From Promethearchaeota archaeon (GTDB taxonomy: Archaea; Asgardarchaeota; Lokiarchaeia; Sigyniarchaeales; SOKP01): a stretch of 64,000 nt of DNA. Below, one piece after another: positions 2,708 through 61,051 of this stretch. The notes beneath the pieces were generated by a model. It did not search any database, was not told the DNA's origin, and saw only the letters and a program-made list of their open reading frames with translations. The translations under genes and the position numbers were made by a program. Where the stretch lies: NCBI GenBank assembly GCA_019058365.1, contig JAHPZE010000012.1:13451-77450 (forward strand), given 5' to 3'. The number at the start of each line of letters is the position of its first letter. Within the stretch, counting starts at the first letter, position 1.

Positions 2708-4255
2708 TTAAAGATTCTTAATAGTACTAAACATAACATTTAATTGTTCATATAATTCTAATCGGAATTCAGAACTAAGATTAAATATAAAATAAGAAAT
2801 TTGTCTTTCTTCCAATTTTGTATATAAATCAAACTCCCCAATCATTTTTGACCAATTTACTTTTTCCTTAGTTATTATACCAATTAAGATCACTGCATTA
2901 TCTTTAAGAGTTTCAATTAGTTTTAAAATAATGTCATTCCAATGAAGATCAATAGAATCCTTTTTTTTAGCATCAAAAATAACAAAAACTCCATCAGAAT
3001 CAGAAACTTTCATAGAAATAAAGTTATAGCTTTCCAAGATTAATCCATTTGAAAATTTATAGATCTCTCTATCTTTCTTATCCTTTTTAGAAAATGGCCC
3101 TAAATCTTTTATCTCTTTTAAAAGCATTAAACCAGGATTGTTGACATGATCTTCTGATATAAATGCTATTGAAAGATCATTTTTGCTTTCGAGGATTGAA
3201 TTAATTTCCCTTAAAATCACACTTTTTAGGTTATTTTCTTCAGACTCTTTACTTAACATGATAAAATGATAAGCTACAATCCCAAAAGCTTCTTCAATAT
3301 TTTCTCCCGTTAACGCACTTGTTTCAATATATGAAATCTTTTTTTTATATTTTTCAGATAACATTTCTACTAATGTTACAGCTTCCTCGGATTCAATTTC
3401 TCTTTCTTGCTCCAGATCTTGTTTATTTCCAACAATAACCACTGATATCTCATGTTCTCTAAATTCATTCAATTCATTAAACCAATTTATTAAATTATAA
3501 TAGGAATCTTTATTTGTTAAATCAAAAACAATAAATGCAGCTTGAGCCCCTTTATAGTATACTTTTCGATATCTTTTAAAATATTGCTGAGCTCCTATAT
3601 CCCAGACAAATAAACTAATTTCATTTCCAAAAAATTCAAAATTATGAGATAATACATTCAATCCTATAGTAGTACGATAATCTGCTAAGAATCTCCCTTC
3701 TACAAACCTGCGTAAGATTGAAGTTTTACCAACTTCATGGTCTCCTATAATAATAAATTTAAATCTATACGTCCCTCCAGACTCTAGTCCAATTTGATAA
3801 GATGGACTGTCTCTTCCATAATACCCTTCAGTTTTATACTCAAAGTTAGGAATCGATAATTCAATTAAATCACCTTCTGATGCAAGTAGAATTTGAGCCA
3901 CTTTCTCCGCAAGAAAATAGGCGTATGGCGCTATTTTATCAATAGAGCCTAGATTTTCAATAACTAAACTTAACGTTATATTTTCAGTAATAGATATAAA
4001 TAAAATACGATTGTGTTCTGTATCAAAGTTTGCTGTTCCAAATTTTTTAAATGAAAATTCATTACGAAATCTCTCTATAACAGGATTAACAACAGCAGTC
4101 ATAATTGAGACTAATTCCATATCTACATCCTTTCTGCGTTCTCCTGAAATAATTAATCCGTCTTGATCAGAAACTATAATGGCTTCGGCATCCTTATTTA
4201 TCTCTAAGAAGTTCTTAAATAATTCACTGAATAATATATTTTTATTTATTGACAA
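2708..4255 (-). CDS. Roadblock/LC7 domain fused to Ras-like small GTPase, plus a C-terminal domain resembling a degenerate GTPase fold
   Basis: N-term roadblock-like (AIIVSDQDGLIISGE..); GDHEVGKTS (G1), YRTTIG (switch I Thr), WDIGAQ (G3), NKQD (G4), ETSA (G5). Start codon would be TTG. Confidence 0.88.
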   Translation of the reverse strand: MSINKNILFSELFKNFLEINKDAEAIIVSDQDGLIISGERRKDVDMELVSIMTAVVNPVIERFRNEFSFKKFGTANFDTEHNRILFISITENITLSLVIENLGSIDKIAPYAYFLAEKVAQILLASEGDLIELSIPNFEYKTEGYYGRDSPSYQIGLESGGTYRFKFIIIGDHEVGKTSILRRFVEGRFLADYRTTIGLNVLSHNFEFFGNEISLFVWDIGAQQYFKRYRKVYYKGAQAAFIVFDLTNKDSYYNLINWFNELNEFREHEISVVIVGNKQDLEQEREIESEEAVTLVEMLSEKYKKKISYIETSALTGENIEEAFGIVAYHFIMLSKESEENNLKSVILREINSILESKNDLSIAFISEDHVNNPGLMLLKEIKDLGPFSKKDKKDREIYKFSNGLILESYNFISMKVSDSDGVFVIFDAKKKDSIDLHWNDIILKLIETLKDNAVILIGIITKEKVNWSKMIGEFDLYTKLEERQISYFIFNLSSEFRLELYEQLNVMFSTIKNL

Positions 4256-7010: not shown

Positions 7011-8126
7011 ATGGTCAGTTATGAATCAAGACCTATTGTAATGGATAATGGAACAGCTCTATCCAAGATTGGCTTTGCTGGGGAGGATGAACCAAACATA
7101 ATAGTCCCAACATTCCCTACCAATCCAATTATAGCAAAACCAAGTATTATCCGTCCCCTCAAGGATATGAGTGAAATTAGACCAAGATCTTTAGTGCAAA
7201 AAAATTTTTCTCAAGGTAAATCTCCTTTAGAAAGAGGGATCATAACAGATTGGGATGCAATGGAGAGATTTTGGCAAATCGTTTTTTATAATCTGCTTAA
7301 AATTGACCCAACAACACACCCTTTAATTTTATCGGAAATACCATTAAACCCAACGGAAAATAAGCTTAAAATGGCACAAATTATGTTTGAAAAATTTAAA
7401 GTCCCTTCACTTCTTATTATTTTGCAACAATCTTTATCATTATATGCATCTGGTCGTACAACGGGCTGTGTTGTGGATATTGGGGAGGGAGTAACAAAAA
7501 TCGTGCCAATTTCTGAAGGCTATGTTCTCACACACGCAATTCAGCTAATGGATATTGCTGGACAAGATATTACAAGATATTTATTAAGATTATTGAGAGA
7601 AGCGGGATATCCATTAACATCAGCAACAGAGAAAAGTCAAGCTATAGATATTAAAGAAACATTTTGTTATGTTTCTTCTGATTTCAATAAGGAGACAGAG
7701 TTAATGAAGAACTCCCCAACCATGGAAAAGATATACAAAACTCCTGATGGAGAAGAAATAAAGATCAAAGGTGAACGATTTATTGCACCTGAATGTTTGT
7801 TTAAACCTGTTCTAATTGGAAAGGAAATTAACTCTCTACCTGAAAATATCATAGAAGCAATATCTTTATGTGATATGAATCTTCACAAAGATTTTTATAA
7901 TAATATAATTCTTTCTGGTGGGACTTCAAGTTTTCCTGGTATAAAAGAACGGCTGAAACATGAAATTATTAAAAGAATTCCCACATCAATAGGAGTTAAC
8001 ATAATTGCATCTCCAAAGAGAGAATTATCTACTTGGATTGGTGGATCACTTTTAGGATCTCTTCCGAGTTTCTCTGAAATAGCAATAACTAAACAACAAT
8101 ATAAAGAATCAGGTTACGAATATTAA
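7011..8126 (+). CDS. Eukaryote-type actin / actin-related protein (Asgard actin)
   Basis: Full-length similarity to actin: MDNGTALSKIGFAGEDEP, GIITDWDAMERFWQIVFYNLL, LSEIPLNPTENKLKMAQIMFE, SLSLYASGRTTGCVVDIGEGVT, LMDIAGQDITRYL, NNIILSGGTSSFPGIKERL, STWIGGSLLGSLPSF, ITKQQYKESG. Confidence 0.97.
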   Translation: MVSYESRPIVMDNGTALSKIGFAGEDEPNIIVPTFPTNPIIAKPSIIRPLKDMSEIRPRSLVQKNFSQGKSPLERGIITDWDAMERFWQIVFYNLLKIDPTTHPLILSEIPLNPTENKLKMAQIMFEKFKVPSLLIILQQSLSLYASGRTTGCVVDIGEGVTKIVPISEGYVLTHAIQLMDIAGQDITRYLLRLLREAGYPLTSATEKSQAIDIKETFCYVSSDFNKETELMKNSPTMEKIYKTPDGEEIKIKGERFIAPECLFKPVLIGKEINSLPENIIEAISLCDMNLHKDFYNNIILSGGTSSFPGIKERLKHEIIKRIPTSIGVNIIASPKRELSTWIGGSLLGSLPSFSEIAITKQQYKESGYEY

Positions 8127-17158: not shown

Positions 17159-19588
17159 TTGAAGCTTGAGGATATTATAATTACGATTTCAGAAGGCGTT
17201 AAAGCCCCAGAATTTAAAGAACTTTTTTCTGAAACTAGATTATATACTTTTTTAGTAGGAGCAGGAATCTCGATGGATCCTCCATCCTGTGTTCCTTCTG
17301 CTAGAATGTTTGTGCGTGAATTGTTTAAATATTATGCTCCTGAAGAGGAAATTAAGAAGTTATTATCATTAGAGTCCTTAAGATATGAATTATTAGTTGA
17401 AAAAGTTCAGAATCTATTCGATAAGGAATTAAAGTTCTTGGATTATCTAGATAGAGTAAAAGAGCCGAATGCTATTCACATCTTCTTGGCAAATATGATA
17501 ATGAGATATAATTATGTAATTACGACAAATTTTGATTATTTTATCGAAATGGGGCTGAAGAAAAAACTCGAAGTGTTTCCAACCTTTCATGATTATCATA
17601 AAAAGGTTATGGTTATTATTACCAAAGAAGATTATCAGAACAAAGTATCTTTCCAGTTCCCAATCATTAAAATTCATGGATCTAAATGGGATGTGATAAA
17701 AGGACGATCAACTAAAGATTCTTTAATAACTACTATAAGTGCTCTTGGACGCGAAAGGGAAAAGGGTGAAACATTTGCAATCGAGCCATATAAAAAGCCA
17801 TTAATCAATGACGTTATGAATGGAAGAGACTTAGTTATTATGGGGTATTCAGGGAGCGATGATTTCGATATCAGCCCAATGTTGAAAGAATTGAGGAATA
17901 TGAAGAGAATAATCTGGATAGAGCATGATCACACCCTAGCTCCGGGAAAAGAAGAGATTTTTAAATATAAGTCAGTAAAAGATTTATCAGAATTAGAAAT
18001 ATCTGAATTATCTAAATTAGATAAATTGTTACTAGAACTTGCTTCAAATAAAAACATAGAAGTTTACAAAATTAGAGCGATGACTATTGAATTTGTAAAA
18101 GAGCAATTAGCACCAATATTTGATGAATCTTTTGAGCTACTGAGAAAAGATACACCAGAGACTTTAAGTTTTAGTGATTATATGCTAGAAAATCATTTAA
18201 AAGCATCAATTTCTTCAAAATATCGACTTGCTCATGAACTATTTTTTGAATTAGGAGATATAGATTCAGCAGAAAGAACTGCTCAAGTTGGTTTAAACTC
18301 ATCCAATGAAGAAAATAATGAAATTAATCAAAACTATTTTATAAATGCTTTGGGGATAATTGACGTCTCCAAAGGAGATTATGATAAAGCCTTGGAATAT
18401 TTCGAAAAATCTCTCAAATTTACTGAAAAATTAAATCAAACTGCTGAAAAAATAGCAGTACTTTTAAATATAGGAAATTTATATCATAAAAAGAGCGACC
18501 TTAAGAATGCATTTAAATATTCATTTGAAGCTGCTGCTTTGCTAAAAGAAACCACTCCAAATTTCATAAAATTTTCTGTTTTGAATAATTTAGGTATTTT
18601 ATATAGAGATAATGGGGATATTCCTAATGCTGTAAAAAATATTGAATCTGCACTTGAAATTGCTGAAAAAACAGGAGATTTATTTAGAAAGTCTTCATGC
18701 TTAAACAACCTTGCTGGAATGAAAATTTCTCAAGGTCTATTAAATCCCGCTTTAAATTATGCCTCTGGAGCTCTTAAAATTAATGAGCAATTAGGAGATT
18801 TAGACAGTATGTGCAATACACTAAATACTATTGGTAACATTTTTAAAACTGCAGGACAATATAGTCAAGCTATGCAATATTTAGAAAGAGCATATCAAAC
18901 AGCAATAAAAATTCAAAACTTGAACGCCAAAGCTCTTACATTAAATTCGATTGGTGTAATTTATTTTAATACGGGAAAGCTCGATTTAGCTTTCGAAAAA
19001 TATAACGAAAGTTTCAATATCAACAAAAATATCGGTGATTTGTCGGGGCAAGCTACTGGTTTAAATAATATTGGGATGTATTATCGTGCTAAAGGGGATT
19101 TCAATAAAGCTTTTGAATTATTTGACCAATCTATAACCCTCACTGAAAAAATTGGAGAAAAGACAAACTTAGGCCTTCGGTATGGAAATAGAGCTTCTAT
19201 TTACGAAATAAAACGAGAATTTGAAAAAGCATTGGCAGATTATAAGAAAGCATTAAGTATTGAACAATCTCTAAAAAATTTAGAAGGAATTGCCAATCAA
19301 CTTACTAATATTGGAGGAGTATTAGGGGATTTAGGAAGATATAACGAAACACTAGAAAATTATGAAAAATCGTTGAATATCATGGAAAATCTAGGTAATA
19401 AACCTGGTATTGCCAGAGCACTAAATAATCTAGGTATTATTTATTATAAATACAAGAAAGACTATGAGAGATCTATTGATTTTTTACAACGAGCACTTGA
19501 TATTTATAAAGAATTAAATATTCCTCAGATGATAATGGAGACGCAAAATAGTATAGATTTAATCAAAAACCAGGTTAATTTAAAGTGA
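17159..19588 (+). CDS. SIR2-like domain fused to about 10 TPR repeats (TTG start)
   Basis: LVGAGISMDPPS, VITTNFDYFIE, IIKIHGS (catalytic His), VIMGYSGSDDFD; then TPRs such as ALNNLGIIYY...YERSIDFLQRALDIYKEL. Confidence 0.92.
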   Translation: MKLEDIIITISEGVKAPEFKELFSETRLYTFLVGAGISMDPPSCVPSARMFVRELFKYYAPEEEIKKLLSLESLRYELLVEKVQNLFDKELKFLDYLDRVKEPNAIHIFLANMIMRYNYVITTNFDYFIEMGLKKKLEVFPTFHDYHKKVMVIITKEDYQNKVSFQFPIIKIHGSKWDVIKGRSTKDSLITTISALGREREKGETFAIEPYKKPLINDVMNGRDLVIMGYSGSDDFDISPMLKELRNMKRIIWIEHDHTLAPGKEEIFKYKSVKDLSELEISELSKLDKLLLELASNKNIEVYKIRAMTIEFVKEQLAPIFDESFELLRKDTPETLSFSDYMLENHLKASISSKYRLAHELFFELGDIDSAERTAQVGLNSSNEENNEINQNYFINALGIIDVSKGDYDKALEYFEKSLKFTEKLNQTAEKIAVLLNIGNLYHKKSDLKNAFKYSFEAAALLKETTPNFIKFSVLNNLGILYRDNGDIPNAVKNIESALEIAEKTGDLFRKSSCLNNLAGMKISQGLLNPALNYASGALKINEQLGDLDSMCNTLNTIGNIFKTAGQYSQAMQYLERAYQTAIKIQNLNAKALTLNSIGVIYFNTGKLDLAFEKYNESFNINKNIGDLSGQATGLNNIGMYYRAKGDFNKAFELFDQSITLTEKIGEKTNLGLRYGNRASIYEIKREFEKALADYKKALSIEQSLKNLEGIANQLTNIGGVLGDLGRYNETLENYEKSLNIMENLGNKPGIARALNNLGIIYYKYKKDYERSIDFLQRALDIYKELNIPQMIMETQNSIDLIKNQVNLK

Positions 19589-32424: not shown

Positions 32425-32682
32425 CTATTTTTCGCTTAATAACCTATTTCTTGAAAACCTTAAAGCAATTATTATTAATATTACACCTAAAATCAAAAAA
32501 CTCATAGAATTAAAAACCTCCGCAGCTTCAGCTCTCCAAAAAATCTGAGATCCTACTAATTCTGGCATAAATCCTTGAATATAGTGAAAATGTAGTTCAC
32601 TTATAAATGATAATATTATTAATAAAATTCCGAAAAATAAAATCACTTTTTCAGCTGAGTTATATTTCATTTTTCCTTTCAT
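32425..32682 (-). CDS. Small two-TM membrane protein
   Basis: 85 aa, start overlaps the 3' end of the STAY-GREEN-like gene (translational coupling likely). Confidence 0.6.
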   Translation of the reverse strand: MKGKMKYNSAEKVILFFGILLIILSFISELHFHYIQGFMPELVGSQIFWRAEAAEVFNSMSFLILGVILIIIALRFSRNRLLSEK

Positions 32683-33157
32683 CCTTTACTATATTAACAA
32701 TGTTCTCTTTCATTTTTCCAAAATTTTCAATCTTATTGTATTTCTTATTTTTTGATTGAAAATGAACATAGATTTGTGATTCTTTTAGATGTGGAAAATT
32801 TTCAATTAATTTCTTTTCTCCATGTATAATGGTTTGAAACACAAGTGGTAAGTGACTACGAAATATTCTATCTCGCATACTCGCCCATCCAAATAGTAAT
32901 CCTCCACTCACGTGAATATAGAAATGTAATTCAAGGTGATCATTTGTCATTAGCCATTCAGCTAAAACTTCGTCTCTCATAAAGCGAGTATAAAAGCTGG
33001 ATATTTGTTTTAAATCATAGTCATCACTTATAGTCAAGAATAGATCTCCCGTTGAATCAGAATGAGTTAAAGTATATCTTCGCGGTAATTTTAAATTATT
33101 AGATTCTACCGAGGCTTTAAACACTACTTTTAGTTTCTCAGGATTAAAATCTACCAT
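32660..33157 (-). CDS. STAY-GREEN (SGR; Mg-dechelatase family, PF12638-type) homologue
   Basis: LKVVFKA...LKLPRRYTLTHSDSTGDLFLTISDDYD...RDEVLAEWL...LHFYIHVSGG...MRDRIFRSHLPLVFQTIIHGEKKLIENFPHLKESQIYVHFQS...YNKIENFGKMKENI, matching the recalled SGR signature across the domain. ATG at 33157. Confidence 0.88.
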   Translation of the reverse strand: MVDFNPEKLKVVFKASVESNNLKLPRRYTLTHSDSTGDLFLTISDDYDLKQISSFYTRFMRDEVLAEWLMTNDHLELHFYIHVSGGLLFGWASMRDRIFRSHLPLVFQTIIHGEKKLIENFPHLKESQIYVHFQSKNKKYNKIENFGKMKENIVNIVKDERKNEI

Positions 33158-33292
33158 TAGTAAGTCTAAAATAATCAAAAATGATGTTTAAACGTTTTTT
33201 TTATTAAATATTACTATAAACTATTTAAAATTGTTTTTAATTTAGGATTGTATTATATATTAAAAATAAATTTACTAACCTAGATGTTATGA

Positions 33293-34114
33293 ATGAACAC
33301 TCTAAAAGGTAAAACAATTTTTATTACAGGTGCTAGTAGAGGGATAGGAAGAACTATAGCTTTACGGGCCGCAGCAGATGGAGCTAATATTGCAGTAGTC
33401 GCTAAGACTAAAGAACCTCATCCAAAATTACCAGGAACAGTGTATACTACTGTAAAAGATATTGAACACGTCGGAGGTAATGCAATCCCATGTATAACAG
33501 ATATAAGATTTGAAGATCAGATTCAAACTGCTATTGATGCCACTGTTGATAGATTTGGAGGGATAGATATCCTTGTGAATAATGCCAGTGCGATAAATTT
33601 ATCTCCAACTTTAGAAATTGGGATGAAGAGATATGATCTTATGTTTTCTGTTAATGTACGAGGGACTTTTTTATGTTCAAAGTTATGTATTCCGTATCTA
33701 AAAGACGCAGAGAATCCTCATATTTTGAATCTATCTCCTCCTCTAAATATGAACCCAAAATGGTTTAAAAATAATCTAGCTTATACTATGGCTAAATACG
33801 GAATGAGTATGTGTGTTTTGGGGATGGCAGAAGAATTTAAAAAAGATGGGATTGCAGTTAATGCGTTATGGCCAAAAACGTCTATAGCTACTGCAGCTGT
33901 GAGAAATTTATTAGGTGGCGAATCAGCAGTTAAACATTCGAGAAAACCAGAAATTGTAGCAGATGCTGCTTATCTAATTTTAACTAAACCAAGTAAAGAA
34001 TATACGGGTAACTTTTTCATTGATGAAGAAATTCTACTTGAGCATGGGATAACTGATTTTGAGAAATATTCAGTTGATCCTAATTCGAAATTATACCTTG
34101 ATTTCTTTCTATAA
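33293..34114 (+). CDS. SDR, HSDL2-like (hydroxysteroid dehydrogenase-like protein 2 subfamily)
   Basis: KTIFITGASRGIGRTIALRAAADGANIAVVAKTKEPHPKLPGTVYTTVKDIEHVGGNAIPCITDIR...ILVNNASAINL...LNLSPPLNMNPKWFKNNLAYTMAKYGMSMCVLGMAEEF. Confidence 0.92.
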   Translation: MNTLKGKTIFITGASRGIGRTIALRAAADGANIAVVAKTKEPHPKLPGTVYTTVKDIEHVGGNAIPCITDIRFEDQIQTAIDATVDRFGGIDILVNNASAINLSPTLEIGMKRYDLMFSVNVRGTFLCSKLCIPYLKDAENPHILNLSPPLNMNPKWFKNNLAYTMAKYGMSMCVLGMAEEFKKDGIAVNALWPKTSIATAAVRNLLGGESAVKHSRKPEIVADAAYLILTKPSKEYTGNFFIDEEILLEHGITDFEKYSVDPNSKLYLDFFL

Positions 34115-34140: not shown

Positions 34141-35034
34141 TTAAGGATTGTTTTTTATAAACTCCACTATTAGGTTGGCTAGTTCAGGACCCTTATCTTC
34201 TTGGATAAAGTGACCAGCATTTTTAATTGTAGTATGATTTTGTCCTTGAGCACCTGGAATACTTTCTTGCCAAAATTTATCTCCCCCTCTTGTAATTGGA
34301 TCACTATCAGAAAAAGCGGTTAAAAATGGTTTTTTCCATTGAAAGAACTGTTCCCATGCTTTTTTATTCGCCATGTGCTCTGGATCTTCTTTAGTAGTTG
34401 GAACCAATGAAGGCATAACTCTTGCTCCCGCTTTAAAAGTATCATCCGGAAACGGGGCATCGTACGCTTTAATCACATTACTAGGCAATTTAGTAACTGT
34501 AGCCCCTTGTATTATCTTTCCTATATCAAATTTCGATGAAGTTTTAGAAAACTCTTGCCATTCTAAAAAAGCTTTACCCATCTTCTGTTCTCCTGTGGGT
34601 AATCCTCCATTCGATAAAATAATCCTCTTAAAACGTTCTTGATTCTCAATAGCAACTCTTAAACCTATTAATGAACCCCAATCTTGGCAAAATAAAGTAA
34701 TATTTTTGAGATCAAGCAGATTTACCATTTTTGTTATCCACACCACATGCTTACGGTAAGAATGATCACTTTGTTCAGTTGGTTTATCAGATCGTCCAAA
34801 TCCTACTAAATCAGGTGCTACTGTTCTGTAACCCGCTTGTATTAGAATTGGGATCATATGTCTATATAAAAAGGACCATGAAGGTTCTCCATGCATGAGA
34901 AGGATGCTTTCAACATCTTTTGGTCCTTCATCTATATAATGAATCCTAACTCCGTCAACATTTAAATAATTAGGTTTAAATGGAAAATTTGGGAGATTCT
35001 TAAACTTTTTCTCCGGAGTGCGTAATAATTTCAT
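34141..35034 (-). CDS. Haloalkane dehalogenase-like alpha/beta hydrolase
   Basis: LLMHGEPSWSFLYRHMIPILIQAGYRTVAPDLVGFGRSDKP...ITLFCQDWGSLIGLR (nucleophile Asp-Trp) ...GGDKFWQESIPG...NAGHFIQEDKG. Confidence 0.85.
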   Translation of the reverse strand: MKLLRTPEKKFKNLPNFPFKPNYLNVDGVRIHYIDEGPKDVESILLMHGEPSWSFLYRHMIPILIQAGYRTVAPDLVGFGRSDKPTEQSDHSYRKHVVWITKMVNLLDLKNITLFCQDWGSLIGLRVAIENQERFKRIILSNGGLPTGEQKMGKAFLEWQEFSKTSSKFDIGKIIQGATVTKLPSNVIKAYDAPFPDDTFKAGARVMPSLVPTTKEDPEHMANKKAWEQFFQWKKPFLTAFSDSDPITRGGDKFWQESIPGAQGQNHTTIKNAGHFIQEDKGPELANLIVEFIKNNP

Positions 35035-36603: not shown

Positions 36604-37374
36604 TTATAGTAAATCTAAACTTATTACCATTACAATCATTCCAAGGATGATTCCTATTATTGAAAGATGTTCAAATCCGCAATCTCGAGACGCAGGAAGC
36701 AATTCATCAAGAGAAATGTAAACCATAAATCCTCCCACACCAGCAAGCATTATGCCTAATATAAAATCATTAATGAAGGGAAAGAGGATTAATCCGACAA
36801 TTAAAGCACCAATTGGTTCACTTATTCCTGAAATGAATGACCAGAAGAAAGCTTTTTTTCTATTCTTTGTTGAAGAATAAATTGGGACTGCTACTGCGAT
36901 ACCTTCAGGAATATTATGGAGTGCTATAGCAAAGCATAATATAATACCGAGATCGATGTTTTTTATGGTAGCTACAAAAGTTGCCATACCCTCTGGGAAA
37001 TTATGAATAAAAATACCAAGGGTGACGAGTAATGATGTTTTCTGTAATTTATTTTCAAAATTGCCTTTTTTATCTTCAAATTCGTATTTATGGGAAATTG
37101 AAATGTCAATTATTAACATTAGAAACATTCCAATTAAAAAAAATGTATTTCCTAATAAGAAACCCAATGACTTAATACCCTCTTGCAGTAATTCTACAAA
37201 AGAAATAAATATCATTACTCCAGCAGAAAAACCCATAATAAGGGAGATAAACTTCTTGCTAGGTTCTTTAACAATAAGAGCAAAAACACTACCTATAGTT
37301 GTGGATAAACCTGCGATTGAAGTCAAAATAAGTGCAAATAAAAAAGCTTCCATAATTATTTTCCGTGTATACAA
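36604..37374 (-). CDS. ZIP-family metal transporter (ZupT-like)
   Basis: FIHNFPEGMATFVA and ALHNIPEGIAVAVPIY signature helices. Confidence 0.93.
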   Translation of the reverse strand: MYTRKIIMEAFLFALILTSIAGLSTTIGSVFALIVKEPSKKFISLIMGFSAGVMIFISFVELLQEGIKSLGFLLGNTFFLIGMFLMLIIDISISHKYEFEDKKGNFENKLQKTSLLVTLGIFIHNFPEGMATFVATIKNIDLGIILCFAIALHNIPEGIAVAVPIYSSTKNRKKAFFWSFISGISEPIGALIVGLILFPFINDFILGIMLAGVGGFMVYISLDELLPASRDCGFEHLSIIGIILGMIVMVISLDLL

Positions 37375-59110: not shown

Positions 59111-59758
59111 GTGAAAAAAATAACAGAAAAGATTGATTTAAAGGAAATTGAGAAAAAAACATGGAGATCGACACTCGAAGATGGAATTTTAGATATTTAT
59201 TTTGGTATATTAGTTTTAGGTATTGGTATGGGTATGACCCTTAGTCATGTGTTGCCTAATCCTTTCGATATATTTATACCATTTATTTTTATTGGAATTG
59301 GGTTAGCTTTTTTTTTAACTGCAAAAAAATTTATTACTCAAACTAGATTAGGTGTTGTAAAATTTGGATTTAAACGAAAAGGGCGTAAAAGAAAGACGTT
59401 AATTGCATTATCTGTAAATTTTATAATTATGTTAATCCTATTTTTAATCCGATTTACTAACCCTGAATTAAGCTTAGAATTTCCAGGATATTTAGATGGA
59501 TTAATTTTGGGTTTACTCTTTATAACTGCTCCTGTATGTTTTGCAGCATATTTCTTAAAATATCCCCGTTTTTACTTTACCGGTTTACTGGTGGGAGTAA
59601 GTTTCTTTTTATCAGATTTATTCTCAATTTTTATACCCGAACCTTTTGATACTTTAATAGTATTTGGCCTTTTAAGTGGTATAATAATAATTATGGGGAT
59701 TGTATTTTTAATCAAATTTCTCCGGAAATACCCATTATCTAAAGAGGAGATGGCTTAA
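59111..59758 (+). CDS. Tandem-paralogue membrane protein A
   Basis: KIDLKEIEKKTWRSTLEDGILDIYFGILVLGIGMGMT...TRLGVVKFGFKRKGRKRKTL...LRKYPLSKEEMA; GTG start. Confidence 0.85.
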   Translation: MKKITEKIDLKEIEKKTWRSTLEDGILDIYFGILVLGIGMGMTLSHVLPNPFDIFIPFIFIGIGLAFFLTAKKFITQTRLGVVKFGFKRKGRKRKTLIALSVNFIIMLILFLIRFTNPELSLEFPGYLDGLILGLLFITAPVCFAAYFLKYPRFYFTGLLVGVSFFLSDLFSIFIPEPFDTLIVFGLLSGIIIIMGIVFLIKFLRKYPLSKEEMA

Positions 59759-59761
59759 AAA

Positions 59762-60385
59762 ATGGCAGAGAATATTGATTTAAAGAAAATTGAGAAAAAT
59801 ATTCTCAAAACTGCTCATCAGCATGGTTTTTTTGATATTGTAATAGGTTTTATAGTTTTTGGAATGAGTTTTGGTCCTGTTTTCCGTGAGAGTCTACCCT
59901 CGCCATATAAATACTTTTTATGGCCATTGATTCTTGTTGTTATTGCAGAATTATTACTTTTTATTATTATCAAATATGTCGTTCAGCCTAGAACTGGAAT
60001 TGTTAAACCCGGACCTTCGCTAAAATCAATGAAAAAGAAGTTATTTATAGTTATTTCCATTCAATTTGTAATTCAATTAATTTTTACTATTTTATTGGTG
60101 ATTGGAAATGGTTCTGGAATACATGTAGAAGGAATTTTATTTATTTTAATTATAGGTTTATTTATTATACCTCTTTTCGGTATTATAGCTTATTTAATGA
60201 AATATCCACGATTATATTTAATCGGAATGCTTATATGGTTGGCGATATTCATCAATGAGCTATTATACGATTCCTTTGATTATAGATTAAGATGGCTTTT
60301 TTCATTTGGAATTATAGGAAGTATAATCTTTTTCATGGGTTTAGCAATTTTTATTCGATTTCTTAAAAAATATTCATTAACATAA
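59762..60385 (+). CDS. Tandem-paralogue membrane protein B
   Basis: NIDLKKIEKNILKTAHQHGFFDIVIGFIVFGMSFGPV...PRTGIVKPGPSLKSMKKKLF...LKKYSLT. Confidence 0.85.
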   Translation: MAENIDLKKIEKNILKTAHQHGFFDIVIGFIVFGMSFGPVFRESLPSPYKYFLWPLILVVIAELLLFIIIKYVVQPRTGIVKPGPSLKSMKKKLFIVISIQFVIQLIFTILLVIGNGSGIHVEGILFILIIGLFIIPLFGIIAYLMKYPRLYLIGMLIWLAIFINELLYDSFDYRLRWLFSFGIIGSIIFFMGLAIFIRFLKKYSLT

Positions 60386-60403
60386 GAGGGGGTGGTCTAA
60401 AAT

Positions 60404-61051
60404 ATGGTAGATAAAATTGATTTAAAGTCGCTTGAGAAAAAAGCTTATAGAAGTGTTTTTAATGATGGTCTATGGGATTTATTTATTGGATTGCTAATTT
60501 TAAATTTTGGAATAGGACCATTATTTAATTTACTTTTTGATTTACCTGAATTCTTTTTCATCATCATTTCATCTATATTATGGAACTTCATGGCTTTACT
60601 AATATTTATTTTAGGTAAAAAATATATAACAACCCCCCGCGTAGGATATGTTAAATTTGGACCAGAGCGCAAGTCAAAACAACTAAAGCTGAAGATATTT
60701 TTAATGATTGTATTTATTGTAAATGTGATTCTTCTCATTTTCCCTCTATCAGGTATAATAAATTATAGCCAAATTACACCTTTCCTTATAACATTATTAC
60801 TAGGTATTGGTATTTTTGCTTTTCCGTTTAGTGTCATTGCTTATTTCTTAGATTATACTAGACTATATTATTATGCTTTTTCGATAGCAATAGGCTTTTT
60901 TTTAATTAATTTAATAACTCCGATTGTAGGTAATCCATTAGGCATCATTATTATTTTTGGGGTTATAGGAGTAATAATTGTGATAATCGGGTTATACTAT
61001 TTTATTCTTTTCTTAAAAAAGTACCCCTTATCAAGAGAGGAGGTGTTATAA
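60404..61051 (+). CDS. Tandem-paralogue membrane protein C
   Basis: KIDLKSLEKKAYRSVFNDGLWDLFIGLLILNFGIGPL...PRVGYVKFGPERKSKQLKL...LKKYPLSREEVL. Confidence 0.85.
   Translation: MVDKIDLKSLEKKAYRSVFNDGLWDLFIGLLILNFGIGPLFNLLFDLPEFFFIIISSILWNFMALLIFILGKKYITTPRVGYVKFGPERKSKQLKLKIFLMIVFIVNVILLIFPLSGIINYSQITPFLITLLLGIGIFAFPFSVIAYFLDYTRLYYYAFSIAIGFFLINLITPIVGNPLGIIIIFGVIGVIIVIIGLYYFILFLKKYPLSREEVL

Follow-up and report, generated by a model that had tools for sequence, protein, structure and literature searches.

The STAY-GREEN (SGR) family, used by plants for taking magnesium from chlorophyll, is present in a non-photosynthetic Lokiarchaeon, and in Asgard archaea and Chloroflexota the SGR gene is associated, both statistically and physically, with heliorhodopsin (HeR), photolyase and other light genes. 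The protein itself belongs to a known family, and archaeal SGR homologues as such were already reported, so the surprise that the earlier note attached to an archaeal SGR was overstated. The novel part is the association with HeR and photolyase, which appears to be unreported: a search of the literature readable without subscription returned no paper with both heliorhodopsin and staygreen/stay-green, and SGR is unmentioned in a paper on heliorhodopsin gene context (PMC8612252). This association is invisible inside the window (the whole stretch of 64,000 nucleotides analysed here), and it, rather than the presence of SGR alone, is the informative part. Our preferred reading, which we hold to be somewhat probable, is that SGR acts as a metallotetrapyrrole dechelatase in a response to light or photo-oxidative stress, most likely on an exogenous chlorophyll-type or other metal tetrapyrrole.

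The SGR locus contains the following features, in window coordinates.

32660..33157, minus strand: SGR (STAY-GREEN, PF12638), 165 aa, assigned by Pfam, the match to PDB entry 7Y5Y and an AlphaFold model
32672..32704, minus strand: C-terminal tail of SGR (ENIVNIVKDERKNEI region) seen only in the window, which crosses the breakpoint of a ~0.72-kb deletion
32425..32682, minus strand: hydrophobic protein with two transmembrane (TM) segments, 85 aa, a same-strand ORF conserved in relatives
33293..34114, plus strand: short-chain dehydrogenase (SDR), divergent from SGR (PF00106, E=1.5e-34; NCBIfam NF006133, E=6.4e-136)
34144-35034, minus strand: alpha/beta hydrolase of the haloalkane-dehalogenase type (NF002043, 452 bits)
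36604-37374: ZupT-type transporter gene, about 3.4 kb from SGR

The mechanical ORF of SGR spans 32660-33178 on the minus strand with a TTG start, while homologues back the ATG at 33157 and hence a product of 165 aa. The earlier note had called this ORF a STAY-GREEN homologue on the basis of motifs, all of which are found in it, and its membership of the SGR/Mg-dechelatase family is confirmed by several comparisons. The Pfam Staygreen profile (PF12638.12) aligns residues 4-151 with profile positions 2-146/147 (E=1.3e-48), and the score of 165 bits exceeds the cut-off of 27 bits across the full domain. The sole meaningful PDB match by sequence is 7Y5Y (E=2.2e-46, 47% identity), the crystal structure of AbSGR-h from Anaerolineae bacterium SM23_63 and the sole SGR structure solved, with which the archaeal protein shares its numbering over residues 4-151. 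An AlphaFold model (pLDDT 86.8) has the same fold as 7Y5Y when compared by Foldseek (E=2e-21, TM 0.85/0.91, 1.7 Å rmsd), and this search of the PDB gave no other significant match, the second-best having E=0.014.

AbSGR-h removes Mg from chlorophyll a, its D34N and D62N variants being soluble but inactive and its H32A variant weakly active (PMC8531759); it also takes chlorophyllide, protochlorophyllide and Chl b/c (PMC11006732). Work cited by PMC11006732 proposes D34 as a ligand and a D62-H32 pair as a proton relay. The three proposed catalytic residues H32, D34 and D62 are all present at identical positions in the window protein, as are the structural residues R26, Y28 and T29, and R26, Y28, H32, D34, D62, E63 and R95 are invariant across 42 sequences (the window SGR and 41 homologues, from Lokiarchaeia to Firmicutes). 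Unlike AbSGR-h, the Lokiarchaeial protein has E for D at position 114, a conservative change common to some Lokiarchaeial homologues, and the window protein alone carries the deletion-derived tail. Plant AtSGR1 and AtSGRL belong to the same family, D34 and D62 corresponding to Asp107 and Asp132 of AtSGRL (PMC8531759), whereas the archaeal host is without known chlorophyll, and there is no reason to assign the window protein to the plant/plastid subgroup. In the literature searched there was no measured activity or substrate for any archaeal SGR. By analogy with the assayed AbSGR-h, we infer that the window protein is a Mg-dechelatase: in line with the mechanism put forward for the Anaerolineae enzyme, D34 would bind the central Mg2+ and the D62-H32 pair would relay protons, so that the metal is released and the free base is left.

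Through drift, the archaeal protein may instead now serve a different metal complex, or bind tetrapyrroles or metals without catalysis, as in metal scavenging coupled to a ZupT-type transporter. Known SGR homologues differ widely in substrate specificity (PMC8531759, PMC11006732) and a ZupT-like gene lies ~3.4 kb from the window SGR, but sequences from Firmicutes, Chloroflexota and Lokiarchaeia all keep the catalytic residues unchanged, and no ZupT-like cluster is among the listed recurrent SGR neighbours. We consider such drift very doubtful.

The Asgard host proposed in the earlier note is upheld. The nearest named relatives are 'Candidatus Lokiarchaeota/Lokiarchaeia', and the window encodes two proteins that bear on its origin.

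7011-8123, plus strand: actin homologue, a typical Asgard eukaryotic-signature protein (PF00022, E=7e-102)
2711-4255, minus strand: 515-aa protein in which residues 166-327 form an internal GTPase domain of the Ras/Roc/Arf type

Many Chloroflexota records also have SGR and the contamination estimate for the bin is 6.57%, so a contaminating or mis-binned Chloroflexota contig has to be weighed; its probability is negligible. The GC content around SGR is uniform at 29-30% and equal to that of the surroundings, and actin and the Ras-type GTPase lie in the same window. Within the window's genus, 13 of 19 genomes have an intact SGR; the gene is also found in neighbouring genera and on one single-contig chromosome (CP070831), with conserved synteny across many Lokiarchaeial bins. 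In a tree of 83 non-plant SGR sequences, the Lokiarchaeial sequences form one group (support 63/27 for strict unity, 97/90 with one other Asgard lineage), and a second supported group holds other Asgard SGRs (Thor-, Hermodarchaeota and a further family). SGR is therefore native to Lokiarchaeia and contamination is excluded. Altogether 49 of 227 Asgard genomes have SGR, and two damaged copies were seen.

G009, contig C1, 1569031-1569264 (locus L019): remnant of a decayed SGR, interrupted by an in-frame stop, in a member of the window's genus that lacks heliorhodopsin
G004, contig C1, 3184683-3185129: second SGR copy of this genome, with one in-frame stop

The overlap between SGR and the two-TM gene, which the earlier note had taken as a sign of membrane coupling, is real (23 nt) but has a local origin. 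In the closest relatives the divergent SDR is followed by SGR, then by a methyltransferase and lastly by the two-TM gene, which does not overlap SGR; in L041, L043, L045, L047 and L052 the two-TM ORF is kept on the same strand, ~1.2 kb downstream of where SGR starts. Alignment of the window DNA with its sister locus L041 reveals a ~0.72-kb gap, and the methyltransferase gene is gone from the window. This deletion accounts for both the overlap and the extended SGR frame, whose tail is lineage-specific, homologues stopping at about residue 154. As a state derived by deletion, the overlap is no evidence for membrane coupling, and that reading of it is rejected. A Pfam scan of the 85-aa protein gave no family match.

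On the other side of SGR, the SDR is a conserved upstream neighbour within the window's SGR subclade, its position and strand being kept in L041-L043, L045-L047, L052 and L059. A plant-like pathway, in which the SDR and the hydrolase would parallel chlorophyll b reductase and pheophytinase, was considered and rejected: the SDR falls in NF006133 and the hydrolase is of the haloalkane-dehalogenase type. The alpha/beta hydrolase is also not among the recurrent SGR neighbours.

The light-gene context emerged from a survey that clustered every ORF lying up to 8 kb from any of 80 SGR genes. Recurrent neighbours include heliorhodopsin (E=3.5e-85 to 2e-102), class I photolyase (2e-92), class II photolyase (TIGR00591, 612 bits) and a DPRP photolyase relative (8.9e-54), together with MsrA, MsrB, peroxiredoxin, phytoene desaturase, DUF1722 proteins, a MerR plus B12-binding CarH-like regulator, and membrane proteins that we label only 'TspO-like' because they score below the Pfam cut-off or have no match. 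With six light-gene queries, at least one match to HeR, photolyase, DPRP, TspO-like or CrtI was found in 35 of the 80 SGR loci and in 1 of 57 random 16.45-kb windows from ten SGR-bearing genomes, and the resulting p=2.6e-9 is optimistic because the query families were picked after the neighbourhoods had been inspected. Among Firmicutes, 1 of 10 SGR loci has light neighbours.

Physical linkage is clearest for HeR: of the 36 Asgard genomes with both genes, 14 have them within 10 kb of each other (~0.6% expected each). HeR immediately precedes SGR, on the same strand, in L056 and L058 (Lokiarchaeia), in L185 (Asgard family f18), where a class I photolyase follows ~4.5 kb further on, and in L087 and L104 (Chloroflexota). 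The Lokiarchaeial locus L055 has a same-strand run of HeR, Asp/Glu racemase, class II photolyase, SGR and methyltransferase. In L067 the run is HeR, CarH-like protein, small protein, SGR; this MerR plus B12-binding protein, which resembles the B12-dependent light regulators CarH/LitR, has CarH (5C8D, E=3.5e-29) among its best PDB matches and scores 149 bits, under the NCBIfam CarH cut-off of 400. That layout is seen in one locus, and weaker CarH-like matches lie close to three more SGR loci. Upstream of SGR at L069, an Anaerolineae locus whose SGR is identical to 7Y5Y over residues 4-151, lie a TspO-like gene (at 2.1 kb) and a photolyase (at 7.5 kb), so that this Anaerolineae SGR has light-gene neighbours as well. 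These arrangements recall the published heliorhodopsin clusters with photolyase, carotenoid and oxidative-stress genes (PMC8612252, PMC9769723).

In contrast to the SGR of L069, the window SGR has no light genes adjoining it in its own genome: the light-gene queries gave 0 matches in the window, with no HeR, photolyase or light regulator adjoining SGR. The genome (G000) does encode a heliorhodopsin on a different contig (C16:14697-15455), with the retinal-binding lysine region conserved, and a photolyase search of this genome found none. Here the link between SGR and light genes is therefore at the genome level only. Class I photolyase is almost absent in Lokiarchaeia, and class II is patchy there.

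At the genome level the HeR counts are free of post-hoc query choice. In the window's genus, intact SGR and HeR occur in the identical 13 of 19 genomes; the genome with the decayed SGR, G009, lacks HeR, and the genomes negative for both genes comprise two incomplete bins (G011, G012) and three that are 94-99% complete (G013, G015, G017). Among 227 Asgard genomes, 49 have SGR, 60 have HeR and 36 have both (Fisher p=1.7e-15, uncorrected for kinship), and counting by genus gave 8/10 versus 13/51 (p=0.002). In Chloroflexota, HeR is found in 21 of 30 genomes with SGR versus 24 of 217 without. In an RpoB tree with 29 members of the family, where G017 and G013 sit on separate branches within the genus, HeR matches 3-4 of 5 independent SGR changes and opposes 0, a comparison that is underpowered with 5 pairs (p=0.125). 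SGR occurs without HeR in several Asgard genomes, among them every one of family f21.

This co-occurrence may stem from a sunlit habitat that the organisms have in common and not from a single pathway. Inhabitants of sunlit surface sediment would then carry SGR and HeR independently of each other, and SGR would simply digest chlorophyll detritus for nutrients. The 24 Asgard genomes with HeR but without SGR are in keeping with this idea, as are the photolyase, carotenoid and HeR neighbours, which differ by clade like the contents of a loose island. Habitat alone does not explain the linkage, with 14 of 36 gene pairs within 10 kb and direct upstream adjacency in three lineages, and the CarH-like regulator within the L067 gene run also speaks against it. 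We judge a pure habitat marker possible but unlikely.

A role for SGR in light or photo-oxidative stress is what this gene context suggests. The response partners would be HeR and, in some relatives, photolyase, methionine sulfoxide reductases, peroxiredoxin, TspO-like proteins and carotenoid genes. The substrate would most likely be chlorophyll-type pigments from decaying phototrophs or another exogenous metal tetrapyrrole, and the purpose is presumed to be photoprotection.

The archaeon could instead synthesise a Mg- (or Co/Ni-) tetrapyrrole of its own, with SGR in charge of its turnover or quality control, and one gene pair in the window's genome is relevant.

G000, contig C34, about 300754-305595 (locus L183: 255-5096): BchH-like magnesium-chelatase/cobaltochelatase large subunit and a BchD/Cob-chelatase-like protein

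The large subunit narrowly passes the BchH equivalog model TIGR02025 (839 versus 829 bits) and adjoins the BchD-like protein. Against this, the chelatase family shows no association with SGR in 58 relatives (9/18 versus 14/40, p=0.39), so a link between SGR and the Mg/Co-chelatase large subunit was rejected, and no BchH-like chelatase was found in the SGR-bearing genomes G004 (single contig), G005 and G027 (99-100% complete). We regard an endogenous substrate as quite doubtful. Because the presence of a BchH-like chelatase does not track SGR, and those three genomes have none, exogenous chlorophyll derivatives are favoured.

Pheophytin, the free base produced by dechelation, remains phototoxic, and a downstream enzyme would therefore be needed. 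Speculative candidates are the TspO-like proteins and a VanA-type Rieske oxygenase. A Rieske oxygenase of the VanA_C type recurs near four SGR loci (L104:6052-7074, L081, L056 and L064; 52-79% identity) in Lokiarchaeia, another Asgard lineage and Chloroflexota. Its identification as pheophorbide a oxygenase (PAO) was rejected, since there was no such library match and the matches were of the VanA_C/NdmA/SxtT type.

More tentatively, and with less than even confidence, we suggest that SGR could be an old part of a light-sensing and photoprotection module (heliorhodopsin, CarH-type regulator, photolyase, TspO-like protein, Msr/peroxiredoxin) with which non-phototrophic prokaryotes, including Asgard archaea, would disarm environmental photosensitising metallotetrapyrroles. 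SGR would then not have evolved for chlorophyll catabolism by phototrophs, and plants would later have recruited it for senescence. The HeR, photolyase and CarH-like context provides a concrete, testable hypothesis for the role of SGR outside photosynthesis, and points to SGR as a candidate partner of heliorhodopsin, a protein of debated function. A further implication is that some Lokiarchaeota are exposed to light and phototoxic pigments.

Two further observations concern other parts of the window. Three consecutive proteins of ~210 aa (59111-61048, plus strand) are apparently paralogous and have an N-terminal pattern in common; one of them was scanned against Pfam and had no match. An 809-aa protein (17159-19585, plus strand) combines a SIR2-like domain with a long TPR array and could serve defence or signalling.
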